A program made the position numbers and the translations under genes. Shown here piece after piece: positions 280-20,600 of a DNA stretch of 64,000 bases; positions within the stretch are counted from its first letter, which is position 1; every line of letters begins with the position of its first letter. The notes beneath the pieces are model-generated. The model ran no database searches and had not been told where the DNA came from. It worked only from the letters and a program-made list of their open reading frames with translations. The stretch comes from Eunapius fragilis (lineage: Eukaryota > Porifera > Demospongiae > Spongillida > Spongillidae): positions 3,505,875-3,569,874 of the forward strand of contig OY811981.1 in assembly GCA_963681505.1 (NCBI GenBank). Direction: 5' to 3'.

Positions 280-2471
280 AATAATGGCGTACGGAGCTTC
301 CTTGGGTTCACTCATGGGGACAGACACTCCTGGTATAGCCACAGCGCTGACATGTGGTTGAACTGTGGGGATGGGGGGTCAAAATAGCACACCCTTCCAC
401 GAATGATAGACACAGGTTATGACTACCAACCAGCACAGTAGTACAATTTGTGCCCTTGTACATGTGCACCTAATGGCTACAGATAAGATCCCTCGTACCC
501 CTAATGGCTGCACATGTAGTGCATTAGTATATGTAACTTAAACTATTTCAACTGCAATAAATTATGCAACTGAATGCAGCACACTTATTGTTCCCTTTGC
601 AAACTTAAACTCCCACATCCTAACTGATCATGTAGGCCTTAGGTATTACCCACATCCTAACTGGTCGTGTAGGCCTTAGGTATTACCCACACCCTAACTG
701 GTCATGTAGGCCTTAGGTATTACCCACATCCTAACTGGTCATTTAGGCCTTAGGTATTACCCATATCCTAACTGGTCATGTAGGCCTTAGGTATTACCCA
801 CATCCTAACTGGTCATTTAGGCCTTAGGTATTACCCACATCCTAACTGGTCATGTAGGCCTTAGGTATTACCCACATCCTAACTGGTCGTGTAGGCCTTA
901 GGTATTACCCACACCCTAACTGGTCATGTAGGCCTTAGGTATTACCCACATCCTAACTGGTCATGTAGGCCTTAGGTATTACCCACACCCTAACTGGTCA
1001 TGTAGGCCTTAGGTATTACCCACATCCTAACTGGTCATGTAGGCCTTAGGTATTACCCACATCCTAACTGGTCATGTAGACCTTAGGCATTACCCACACC
1101 CTAACTGGTCATGTAGGCCTAAGGTATTACCCACACCCAAACTGGTCATGTAGGCCTTAGGTATTACCCACACCCTAACTGGTCATGTAGGCCTTAGGTA
1201 TTACCCACATCCTAACTGGTCATGTAGGCCTTAGATATTACCCACACCCTAACTGGTCATGTAGGCCTTAGGTATTACCCACCATCCGTAGGCACAGTGT
1301 CAACAAATCGCTCTTCCACAACTCTGAACCTGATCTCTTCCCCTATGTCCATGAAGAGGTCATGGCTTCCCTCTTCTGTCTGGTACTCCCATACCCACAA
1401 CTGCTCCTTGTGGTCACTAAGTTAACAGTTAAAAGAAAAGCAGGCACTCAGAACCCAGTGAGCTGTATAGCATGTCATCACCAATCCACATTAGTTGGAC
1501 ACATTCACTGCTGTTACAGACTGTTTTGTACACACGCAGGTTGGGCTGCCTGCATTCATGCTACCCAATGTGTTGTTTTAAATGATAGCTCCTTATTAAC
1601 TTGAAGGATACAATCTCTTTGGATGCTGCAGGCTTTGAGGAGGTATGAGGATGTCGTCGAAGAAAGTGAGAGAGACTGAAAGCAAAAATGGAAAGAAGGG
1701 CCTGTGCAAATGTGTACAGCTAGCCATCCATGTACACACTTCTGACCCTATAAGAACTAGCCATCCATGCATACACACACACACACACACACACACACAC
1801 ACACACACACACACACACACACACACACACACACACACACACATTTAACCCTTTCAGAGCTGTTAGCCATTCCTGCACACATATCTAACCCCTTTAGAGT
1901 TGCAAGCAACCCCGGCCTTCAAACCTCTGACACCTTCAGAGCTGCTGCTCCTCACTTTGCCCACGAGAACTTCATTGATGATGGGTCTGAACACTACAAA
2001 TCGAAACTGCACTATAAAACAGGAAAGAAAAATTAAAATTATAATTGCTGTCATCACACACACACACACACACACACACACACACACACACACACACACA
2101 CACACACACACACACACACACACACACACACACACACACACACACACACACACACACACCTTTGATGTGTGCTGCACCGTCTCCAGGAAATATGTAGGAG
2201 TCACCCACTTGAATTACGTCGTGGAGCGCAACACAGAGTCCCACACCATGGACCACCTGGACAAAATGGGTATTGACATAAATACCACTGCACAAATCCT
2301 GTACATGTGAGCTCAATAGCGAAATTTATACACAGGTTCGCATGGGGCATACGATTATACCTTGTTCGCAAACTTCTTATTTAGCTCGTAGTCAATCCTT
2401 TTCCCGGTATCTTCTTCAAACCACCTGGGGTCGATGCGTATGTTGTCTCGCATTTCGGTGAGAACAAACAT
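280..2471 (-). CDS. POLR3H: RNA polymerase III subunit RPC8 (RPC25), nearly complete
   Basis: Encodes the Rpb7-like stalk subunit of nuclear RNA polymerase III, used in initiation at tRNA and 5S genes. Exons on the minus strand, in order: 2471-2361, 2256-2160, 2011-1925, 1675-1612, 1416-1283, 362-280. They join in frame to 192 codons. Recognisable stretches are [13 protein letters not shown] at the start, [55 protein letters not shown] and [16 protein letters not shown], all in the order of animal POLR3H (about 204 residues). The sixth exon ends KEAPYAII at a GTAAGC donor. The conserved GLGLLSWW tail was not found and probably lies left of the window; alternatively the frame simply reads on to a stop near 205. 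The introns are rich in tandem repeats (see 616-1282 and 2055-2159). The gene is head-to-head with TOP3A. Confidence 0.93.
616..1282. repeat. 37-bp minisatellite, about 18 copies, in POLR3H intron 5
   Basis: The unit reads, on the minus strand, GTGGGTAATACC then roughly CTAAGGCCTACATGACC and AGTTAGGAT. The array starts exactly at the 5' splice site of the exon ending at 1283: the true junction is GGATG|GTGGGTAATACC, and each unit carries GGATGTGGGTAATACC or GGGTGTGGGTAATACC. Units differ by only one or two bases, so homogenisation is recent. There are no unique spacers. Confidence 0.95.
1771..1843. repeat. (AC)n microsatellite in POLR3H intron 3
   Basis: About 36 AC units in the intron between the exons at 1925-2011 and 1612-1675. 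The apparent His-Thr or Cys-Val reading frames across it are artefacts of the repeat. Confidence 0.95.
2055..2159. repeat. (AC)n microsatellite forming the donor of POLR3H intron 2
   Basis: On the coding (minus) strand this is an uninterrupted GT run of about 50 units that begins directly at the exon end CATCAAAG|GTGTGTG at 2160. The 5' splice site is therefore the first repeat unit. TOP3A intron 9 has the same arrangement with the same exon end ATCAAAG. Confidence 0.93.
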
Positions 2472-2692
2472 GTCGGTTATAATATGTAGCTGGCTGCATA
2501 CGATAATTAACACAGTATTAGAAAATTTAACCCCTTAGGAAAAACGAGGGAACCGCTCACTTAACAGCCGCTTCTTTGGCTCTAACGAGGCTGCTGTGCA
2601 CTGGCACTAAACAGTAACAGCGCGCAATTGCATAGAACGCACTCATTTGTTTTGTTCTGTAGGATAGGCTAGCCTAGTTGCGTGTATAAATT
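2472..2692. promoter_or_regulatory. Putative bidirectional promoter between POLR3H and TOP3A
   Basis: Only 221 bp separate the two start codons, which point away from each other. The interval must hold both 5' UTRs and both promoters. No clear TATA box is seen for either direction. A shared promoter is inferred from spacing. Confidence 0.7.
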
Positions 2693-17600: not shown

Positions 17601-20600
17601 GTACATCCATGCACTGTGGTTGTATGGTGCGCATATGGGCATTTGGTACTTTACTGCATGAGTCAAGTCCACAATTTAAATCTACCTGTGAGCTTGCATC
17701 GTCAGCTTCCATACTTCAGCACTAAAATGTGCAATACCAGCTCATTCTTGTTAGCTTTGTTCTATACCATGCACTGTAGCACTACTAAGCTCTATTATTA
17801 AGCAGCCATTATTCATTTACCCATGTGGACAGTTGTGCAATTGTATGTATGGCCGCCCCCAGCAATATGTTAATGTGTCTGGGCTTAAAAGTGTTGCATG
17901 CTCTGCATTGCTATTGGAAGGATACCTGCAGCTGAGATAAGTTTTGCTATTGCGACAGAATAATGTATACTGGTCATTGTCATTGGGTTTGGCTCACTAT
18001 ATCGCGTACATGTACATGCACTGTATCACGCACAGCATACTGCACATGCATGTAAGTTTACATGTGTTCTTGTGCATGTGTGAGTCATTATTATAATATT
18101 TGCATGTACACATGATGGGGATAGTGTAGCTTACACATTTGGCTTAGTGTATCATATCTCTTGTTCAGGAGCAACTCAGAGAGGAAGAGGCGTGCACATG
18201 GGTGGAGATGGCGGTGGGATTAGTGGAAGAGGTGGAAGAGGAAGGGGGAGTGGAGTTGGAGGAGGAAGAGGTGACAGAGGAAGGGGGAATGGTGGAGGTA
18301 GAGGAGGAGGAAGGGGAAATGGTGGAGATGGAGGAAGAGGAGGAAGGGGAAATGGTGGAGATGGAGGAAGAGGAGGAAGGGGGAATGGTGGAGGTAGAGG
18401 AGGAAGGGGCTATGGTGGGGCAGGGGGAGGAAGGGGAAATGGTGGAGCAGGTGGTGGTAGAGGATTTGGATTTGGAGGCAGTGGAAGGGGAGGACAAGAT
18501 GGAGAAGCATATGATGATGATGATGATGGTGGTGTGCCCCGGACTTCATGCTACGGTAGGTGTTATGGCACGTTAGCATGTCAGTGCATTGTGTTAAGTA
18601 TGCCCGTTGTGTGCCCATGTCAGTATAGCATGTAGCAGGGGGGGGAAGAACAGGGAGGCTTTTACCCCCTCCCCTCCCCCCCCCCCCCTCCATCATTATA
18701 ATATCCAGATGAATAAAATTAAACACACACAAATTAGCACATCTATATGTAACAATATAGGACATGCATACTGTAGGTATCTCTAGTAACTAATTTAATA
18801 GAAATAGGGAATACATTTATAAATGCAAATGATGGCAGCAGAAATATTATCCATCTTGTGAATGTATCGTACTGTGTCAATTAGTGGATGAATTTCATTT
18901 TTTATTTACATGTAGGCTGCTTTTATTACTTTCTGCCACTTCGCCATATGTCAGTATGTAGTGTGTCCATATGTCACTGTGGCAAATACATGTAGCAGTC
19001 CAAATTATCGATTGTGTCCATTTAAAAATATTATTTTACCAACCGTTATATCATCTGCAGGAGCTCCTACCCCAGCTATCATGTCACAGCCGGTATTAAA
19101 GTAGGTATCTCCGTACTATGCCCATAGGTTATCTACATGTGTGTCAGTGCTATAGAAATGGGAAGGATTGGGTTATCGGACACATTTTTTGAAATGTGCA
19201 AGCATAGGTCGGGCTAAATAATGATGGGTTAATAGCTTACCATATAATGAACATTTGGTTAAGCAGGGAACATTATACTCAACAGTGCAGTGTGTGGATG
19301 TGGTCAAGATGCCATCTTATTGACTGTAAGGAAGGAAGACAGTGTGAACAAGGGTAAGTGTATGTATGTATGTGCAGTGTGTACAGAGGGTAAGTGTATG
19401 TATAATGTAGGGAGGGCGTGTTTACAGTGCACAGTGTGTACATGAAAGTGTATGTTACAGAGTTGTGCACAGTATGTACTGCAGTGGATACACCTGTACA
19501 TATCTTTTGGGTGGTTTCTATTGAGTTTCATGTACTTAACTTAACATTAACAACTGGAAAAGCGCCAGCCTTGGGGGGGGGCTGAGAGTCATTTGCTTTC
19601 CTTTCCATTTTAGGTCGTCAGTTCTATTCGTGCCCACAACGAGAGGGTGGGTGTGGCTTCTTCCTGTGGGCTGATCATCAAGGAGATCCAACATCTCGAG
19701 GTTCTTCTGTGCCATCAGGACCAGCTCCTGTGAACAACCATAGTACAAGTAATGGCTTATCAATGCACCTTTTACTGCTGGCGTCACACATGAATTAGGG
19801 GGGATCAACTTTAATAATGGTATAACTTAACCATCATAGCTCCTGCATGCTTTTCATTTTCGTTAAGAAGTAAATTATCACGCGTTTCGTTTTTGTTGTT
19901 ATGACAATGGAGCTTTTGTAGGGGATTTCTATGCAGCTAACCATTGCTGGAAGTTGCTAATGAGACGCGCATAGTCGTGCTTTTCAGTTTTTGGGCAGTC
20001 AAATTCCTGTAACTCATGAGTGCTGTAATATCTGCATATCTGCACCATAACTAGCAAAGGTACTGCATTGTTAGGCATTCATTTTGTACTTGCTGTGTTT
20101 CTTTGTGGCGTTTCTATAAGGACTTACATTTTGTCAAACATAGTCTATTAATTTGTGACATCAGCGGTAAAAGGTCCATTCAGTTTCAGTTTTTGCCTTC
20201 ACTTTTACATGTATGTGTACATGGGCTTGTGCATCATTGAGGGAAGAACAAAGATGAGGAGGGGTTATTGCCCTGCCCCTTCCCTAGCATCGTCAAAATG
20301 ATAATGAGTAAACTTAACCATTGTGGTAACTGATTAATAGTGTGCCACGTGACGTCAGCACCATACGTATTAATTTATACATGATCAGCCATATATATGT
20401 ATTTATTATTATTATTTTTGTGGTGAAAAAGATCTATTACATGTACTTTATTGTGGCTGCATTGTTACATGCATGTTTGTCATGTCATAACACACACATT
20501 GGTGACTACTTGCTACACACTGCCAAGCTAGTCGTATGAATATCATTATATATTTCAATCACTGACACTGCTCCCCTTCCCGCATTACATTCTGCTGCTC

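Follow-up and report, generated by a model that had tools for sequence, protein, structure and literature searches.

Tandem repeats at and across exon–intron borders of TOP3A, POLR3H and other genes in the sponge Eunapius fragilis

In amphioxus, minisatellite-like repeats called 'mirages' lie across the exon–intron boundary of Adh3, the globin genes, troponin C and PGBD5, at either the donor or the acceptor; the AG/GT signal is kept in many copies, a model of intron gain has already been proposed, and the authors report that regular splicing is undisturbed (PMC3087553, PMC3902484). Human CBS has a 31-bp variable number tandem repeat (VNTR) at exon 13–intron 13, c.1444_1467+7, in 16–21 copies, each unit of which takes 24 bases from the exon and 7 from the intron (PMC2630376, PMC1395315), and a third source sets out intron gain by tandem genomic duplication, the AGGT model, in which the duplication copies splice signals (PMC3443670). 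Judging by titles and abstract openings, no paper among those listed in the literature searches deals with border-spanning repeats in sponges. Here we analyse such repeats in two neighbouring genes of the freshwater sponge Eunapius fragilis, TOP3A and POLR3H, within a stretch of 64,000 nucleotides on chromosome 11 (the window; C11:3505875-3569874 of a 219-Mb genome in 24 contigs), and in introns of further genes. The longer border repeats are, in our opinion, probably the outcome of random tandem duplication in short, repeat-rich introns.

TOP3A lies on the forward strand with 33 exons and POLR3H on the reverse strand with six exons, according to the gene models of this analysis, which, as predictions from sequence, are sound: the spliced exons 1-24 of TOP3A match DNA topoisomerase 3-alpha (4cgy, query residues 6-609, E 2.4e-280) and the spliced POLR3H protein matches RPC8 (E 2.1e-70), both matched chains being, we presume, human. 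TOP3A exon 32 does not keep the reading frame in the model, so that the part around this exon is provisional; the flanking introns 31 and 32 were nevertheless kept in the counts. Exon 28 of the same gene (window 18169-18555) is itself a repeat-rich coding exon, encoding a Gly/Arg-rich stretch.

An earlier reading, made from the sequence only, had named nine junctions of the two genes with repeats at or beside the splice site, and the genes, junctions and repeats were all confirmed, eight by comparing the extents given by Tandem Repeats Finder (TRF) with the junctions and the ninth, in TOP3A intron 30, by reading the sequence. The nine cases fall into three groups, and in most of them the repeat contains little or no exon sequence. 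The first group comprises true border duplications, in which the repeat unit holds the end of an exon together with the donor. In TOP3A intron 20, a 41-bp repeat of 2.3 copies (13614..13706) takes in the last 9 bp of exon 20 and continues across the donor at 13623, and in intron 21, a 25-bp repeat of approximately 25 copies (14458..15081) includes the last 15 bp of exon 21 together with the donor at 14473; both were detected by TRF as well as by a tandem-duplication detector described below. The third, in intron 30 (19340..19403), is a two-copy duplication seen by eye, in which the donor at 19354 is copied 36 bp downstream along with 14 exon bases, although no TRF row with a score of at least 40 and no spanning locus by the detector was obtained for it. 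For intron 21, the proposed reach of 7-12 bases into the exon is too short. Copying of exon–intron borders is supported in these three introns, by eye in intron 30, and in introns 20 and 21 it ran from exon to intron: the exon parts of these repeats encode HGIG and GLVEG, respectively, residues that are identical in topoisomerase 3-alpha, so that the intronic copies derive from the exon.

The second group consists of arrays that merely reach the edge of the intron. In POLR3H intron 5 (363-1282), a 37-bp array of 18 copies (612..1287, reverse strand) extends 5 bp over the donor by TRF, while the detector places its start exactly at the donor (0 bp); here, the frame-keeping donor itself is not repeated, since the first array copy differs by one base. 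In TOP3A intron 7, a 34-bp array (4956..5107) ends 1 bp inside exon 8, which starts at 5107, and its last copy supplies the acceptor. The remaining four cases, by TRF, are GT/CA dinucleotide runs at or beside a splice site, i.e. GT runs beginning with the donor itself (distance 0) in POLR3H intron 2 (2055..2159, reverse strand) and TOP3A intron 9 (5551..5712), a TG run 4 bp past the donor of TOP3A intron 16 (11333..11395), and a CA run ending 5 bp short of the acceptor of TOP3A intron 18 (13316..13432).

The suggestion that such copies supply decoy splice sites is borne out as far as predicted site strength is concerned. TOP3A intron 21 has 20 additional GT sites whose scores lie no more than 0.5 below that of the real donor, or exceed it, on a matrix trained partly on the same donors, and six of them are predicted to keep the reading frame open if used. 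Splicing presumably keeps using the outer site. An array with 20 strong decoy donors provides a natural test of how the spliceosome chooses among equals.

The same two genes also contain many arrays away from splice sites. After merging, the TOP3A and POLR3H introns hold 16 arrays with a TRF score of at least 100, of which eight touch a junction, in line with the proposed tie between repeats and splice sites, and eight do not, including the largest. These latter arrays, in TOP3A introns 8, 9 (second array), 10, 12, 14, 15 and 25 and POLR3H intron 3, lie at least 36 bp from both junctions. Counter-examples are the largest array itself, with 33 copies of 54 bp in TOP3A intron 9 (5794..7576; donor 243 bp and acceptor 38 bp away), the 11-bp array of 66 copies in intron 10 (7778..8508; 117 and 36 bp, respectively), the 20-bp array in intron 15 (10890..11127; 156 and 141 bp from the junctions) and the 24-bp array in intron 25 (16433..16933; 579 and 241 bp).

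Two further sets of introns were used for comparison: 57 introns of CCT, kinesin and myosin genes (loci L026-L049), with junctions from profile matches and with a myosin sample covering two of 12 targeted gene regions, and 17 introns of one duplicated gene in a 200-kb C1 sample, the only gene taken from C1 because this sample is poor in ordinary genes. Together with the 37 introns of TOP3A and POLR3H, this gives 74 introns of other genes and 111 in all; two sets had median intron lengths of 185 and 260 bp. The share of intron bases taken up by tandem repeats is 33 % in TOP3A and POLR3H, 30 % in the CCT, kinesin and myosin genes and 52 % in the duplicated gene; in this respect the earlier reading was upheld, with arrays accounting for about one third of intron length. 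The corresponding share is 1.3 % in window positions 22000-58000, a stretch that looks gene-poor without being proven gene-free, and 2-25 % across ten 20-kb blocks of the C1 sample, likewise not proven gene-free. Introns this full of tandem arrays will have some arrays that touch junctions. Along the window, the tandem-repeat content falls beyond TOP3A, from 27 % in positions 1-22000 to 1.2 % in 22001-64000.

Tandem duplications were called in all introns with one uniform detector (units of 12-149 bp), which returned none in shuffled introns (mean 0.0 loci). The observed positions were compared with a random-start null, in which the probability that a unit of length u covers a particular junction is (u-1)/(L0+u-1), where L0 is the intron minus its extra copies. 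The detector found 13 loci in the 37 TOP3A and POLR3H introns and 29 in the 74 other introns. In these other genes, the longer repeats cross junctions no more often than random placement predicts, i.e. three donor spans and one acceptor span among 29 loci against 3.30 expected each (P 0.67 and 0.97), which speaks against the single junction-locked mechanism that had been proposed. In TOP3A and POLR3H, two donor spans and one acceptor span among 13 loci compare with 0.80 expected each (P 0.19 and 0.57), and over all 111 introns there were five and two among 42 loci, with 4.10 expected each. Based on TRF extents, two of 21 arrays span a junction in the 57 comparison introns (4.45 expected), and six of 31 do so when these are pooled with TOP3A and POLR3H (5.94 expected). 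Loci that span the donor or lie within 10 bp of it number 5/29 in other genes against 4.66 expected, and 9/42 in all introns against 5.79 (P 0.11), or 9/38 against 5.06 at a stricter score (P 0.05). A separate count of copied 24-bp windows at the stricter cut gave one of 37 and two of 57 donors against 4.89 and 6.85 expected, i.e. fewer than inside introns, but this test does not amount to a fair null, since large arrays dominate the windows inside introns.

Border duplications do occur in other genes, at this random-like rate. In CCT eta (L027) two introns carry them, one at donor 2093 (28 bp), which was hand-placed from the protein match, and one at donor 2926 (49 bp), and in a kinesin-type intron (L033) 26 bp that include the acceptor at 1942 are duplicated. 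The C1 sample holds two full copies of the duplicated gene and one partial copy (C1 sample 50400-61900, 94900-105100 and 109500-112300; L011-L012 and L015-L017), with main matches 90-94 % alike; no Pfam match was obtained for two predicted proteins, which may resemble nephrocystin-4. A donor-crossing 29-bp array of this gene numbers 49.8 copies in one of the paralogues and 9.8 in its counterpart; the donor was placed by hand, one repeat copy upstream of its predicted position. In the second paralogue, five additional bases directly precede the donor, and this paralogue may therefore be out of frame. An array before one predicted acceptor has 4.3, 29.7 and 19.5 copies in the three gene copies, and a 50-bp array of 20 copies is present in one gene copy only. 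Slippage or unequal exchange may well be the motor of such array change. These differences lie between paralogues; for TOP3A and POLR3H, no alleles were seen.

Several observations weigh against a purely random origin. By TRF extents, four of the ten longer-unit arrays in TOP3A and POLR3H span a junction against 1.49 expected (P 0.04), an excess chosen after the fact, and four of 13 detector loci in these genes, with the GT-rich start of TOP3A intron 9 among the four, span the donor or lie within 10 bp of it, where 1.13 were expected (P 0.02). In the 57 comparison introns, seven of 14 arrays with a TRF score of at least 100 start within 25 bp of the donor (2.79 expected, P 0.003; P 0.02 with the last 35 bp of the intron barred), falling to seven of 21 at a score of 50 (P 0.04; barred, P 0.21); pooled with TOP3A and POLR3H, the count is 10/23 against 3.80 (P 0.0005; barred, P 0.006). 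No excess of arrays within 25 bp was found at acceptors. Several distances and score cuts were tried for the near-donor test and the 3' end of introns is constrained; moreover, four of the seven near-donor arrays come from one myosin locus (L048), including one in an intron (646-1196) that was entered manually when its array was already known. A first near-donor count of 8/16 (P 0.0016) relied on higher-order repeat periods and was superseded.

The junction calls are imperfect as well. The gene finder, whose training set of 67 splice sites and 14,632 coding bases was mostly anchored by homology, recovers 24-25 of 31 TOP3A exons exactly at lighter intron penalties and 20 of 31 at the heaviest, and agrees exactly with the profile-anchored method on 22 of 39 introns; a self-trained version drifted into noise and was dropped. 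Seven of the 39 anchored introns, with a splice score below 4, were left out, some of them re-entering through the gene finder, and gene-finder introns were excluded if they were shorter than 45 bp or if their profile gaps fell outside -30 to 15. The 17 introns of the duplicated gene were hand-picked from predictions. Comparing repeat positions with random placement gave no excess of spanning outside TOP3A and POLR3H and a hint of donor-side clustering within 25 bp; because of this hint and the other counter-results, we hold random duplication to be probable and go no further.

Dinucleotide runs at the donor form a separate case. Sense (GT)8+ runs (at least 16 bp) begin exactly at the donor in three of 11 cases and within 6 bp of it in five of 11, against 0.04 and 0.29 expected; outside TOP3A and POLR3H the counts are 1/7 and 2/7 (0.01 and 0.08 expected), and with the duplicated gene also set aside 1/5 at both distances (0.01 and 0.05 expected). 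In the duplicated gene, a GT run directly follows the same predicted donor in both copies. GT runs at donors therefore exceed chance, on few cases, three of the five coming from TOP3A and POLR3H themselves, and growth of such runs is likely to be an extra effect. The proposed slippage seeded by GT-rich donors thus fits the dinucleotide runs but not the longer arrays. As an account of the whole, i.e. that only GT-rich donors seed, slippage turning the 5' end of the intron into a dinucleotide run, with the longer arrays unrelated, it is unlikely, since the longer border duplications need another cause. On the sense strand, GT runs outnumber AC runs by 17 to 5 at 12 bp and by 11 to 3 at 16 bp.

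The broader alternative is that splice junctions themselves seed the duplications, through nicks, R-loops or events linked to splicing, so that introns grow by copying their own borders. The eight junction-touching arrays of TOP3A and POLR3H, the spanning excess by TRF extents in these genes and the pooled clustering next to donors all favour it, while the random-like spanning elsewhere, the arrays of the same two genes far from junctions and the lack of an excess at acceptors do not. R-loop-driven duplication in particular finds no clear support, as the sense GC skew is mixed: of 44 loci, 23 have a positive and 19 a negative value, and the mean is 0.178, compared with 0.073 over all intron bases. 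Altogether, we regard junction seeding as improbable. That a role in splicing preserves the repeats, e.g. as extra donors or as pyrimidine-rich tracts aiding recognition, is very improbable, for although two predicted acceptors in the duplicated gene are preceded by pyrimidine-rich arrays, at distances of 4 and 6 bp, and TOP3A intron 21 offers its many strong donors, the severalfold copy-number differences between paralogues are unlike a tuned element, and 22/37, 34/57 and 8/17 introns in the three sets have less than 30 bp of tandem repeat.

Under random duplication, short tandem duplications would often arise in the introns of this sponge, starting at roughly random points along the intron, and then expand or shrink as minisatellites. 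Because the introns are short, a share of duplications of 20-50 bp would have to cross a splice junction. Border copies would be tolerated because the outermost original site, i.e. the first donor or the last acceptor, still adjoins the exon, and the exon part of each copy would turn into intron. As a separate and smaller effect, slippage would extend the donor's own GT into GT runs. It is tempting, if rather speculative, to see transcribed introns as a hot spot at which tandem duplications arise, additionally seeded next to GT-rich donors, and to suppose that the introns are at present being lengthened by copies of their own 5' borders, fast enough for the change to show between paralogues and alleles.

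Two further regions were noted in passing. Window positions 58727-62343 and 62402-63953 encode a predicted cupin/JmjC hydroxylase and a predicted ADP-ribosylglycohydrolase, respectively, and C22:1492658-1619295 has five matches to one segment of an SNF2 profile, spaced 25-39 kb apart, perhaps a tandem gene family.

With regard to the known systems, the sponge repeats are of the same kind as the amphioxus mirages. The repeat unit lies across the exon–intron boundary in TOP3A introns 20 and 21 and in the CCT eta and kinesin-type introns, as well as, by reading, in TOP3A intron 30, and many copies carry splice signals, as do the 20 GT sites of intron 21. No boundary-spanning unit is present in TOP3A introns 16 and 18, and in POLR3H intron 5 and TOP3A intron 7 the overlap is 5 and 1 bp only. 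The amphioxus mirages belong to another phylum and other genes. The CBS VNTR likewise has a unit that spans the exon–intron border, as in sponge TOP3A, but is one human locus with known alleles, whereas none were seen for the sponge arrays. The AGGT model makes a new intron inside an exon, whereas the sponge introns pre-exist and, as far as tested, only their length changes. Border-spanning minisatellites, described in the papers cited above from lancelets and one human gene, are hereby placed in a sponge, together with a null model for them: short introns full of tandem repeats and random duplication alone predict border-spanning cases.

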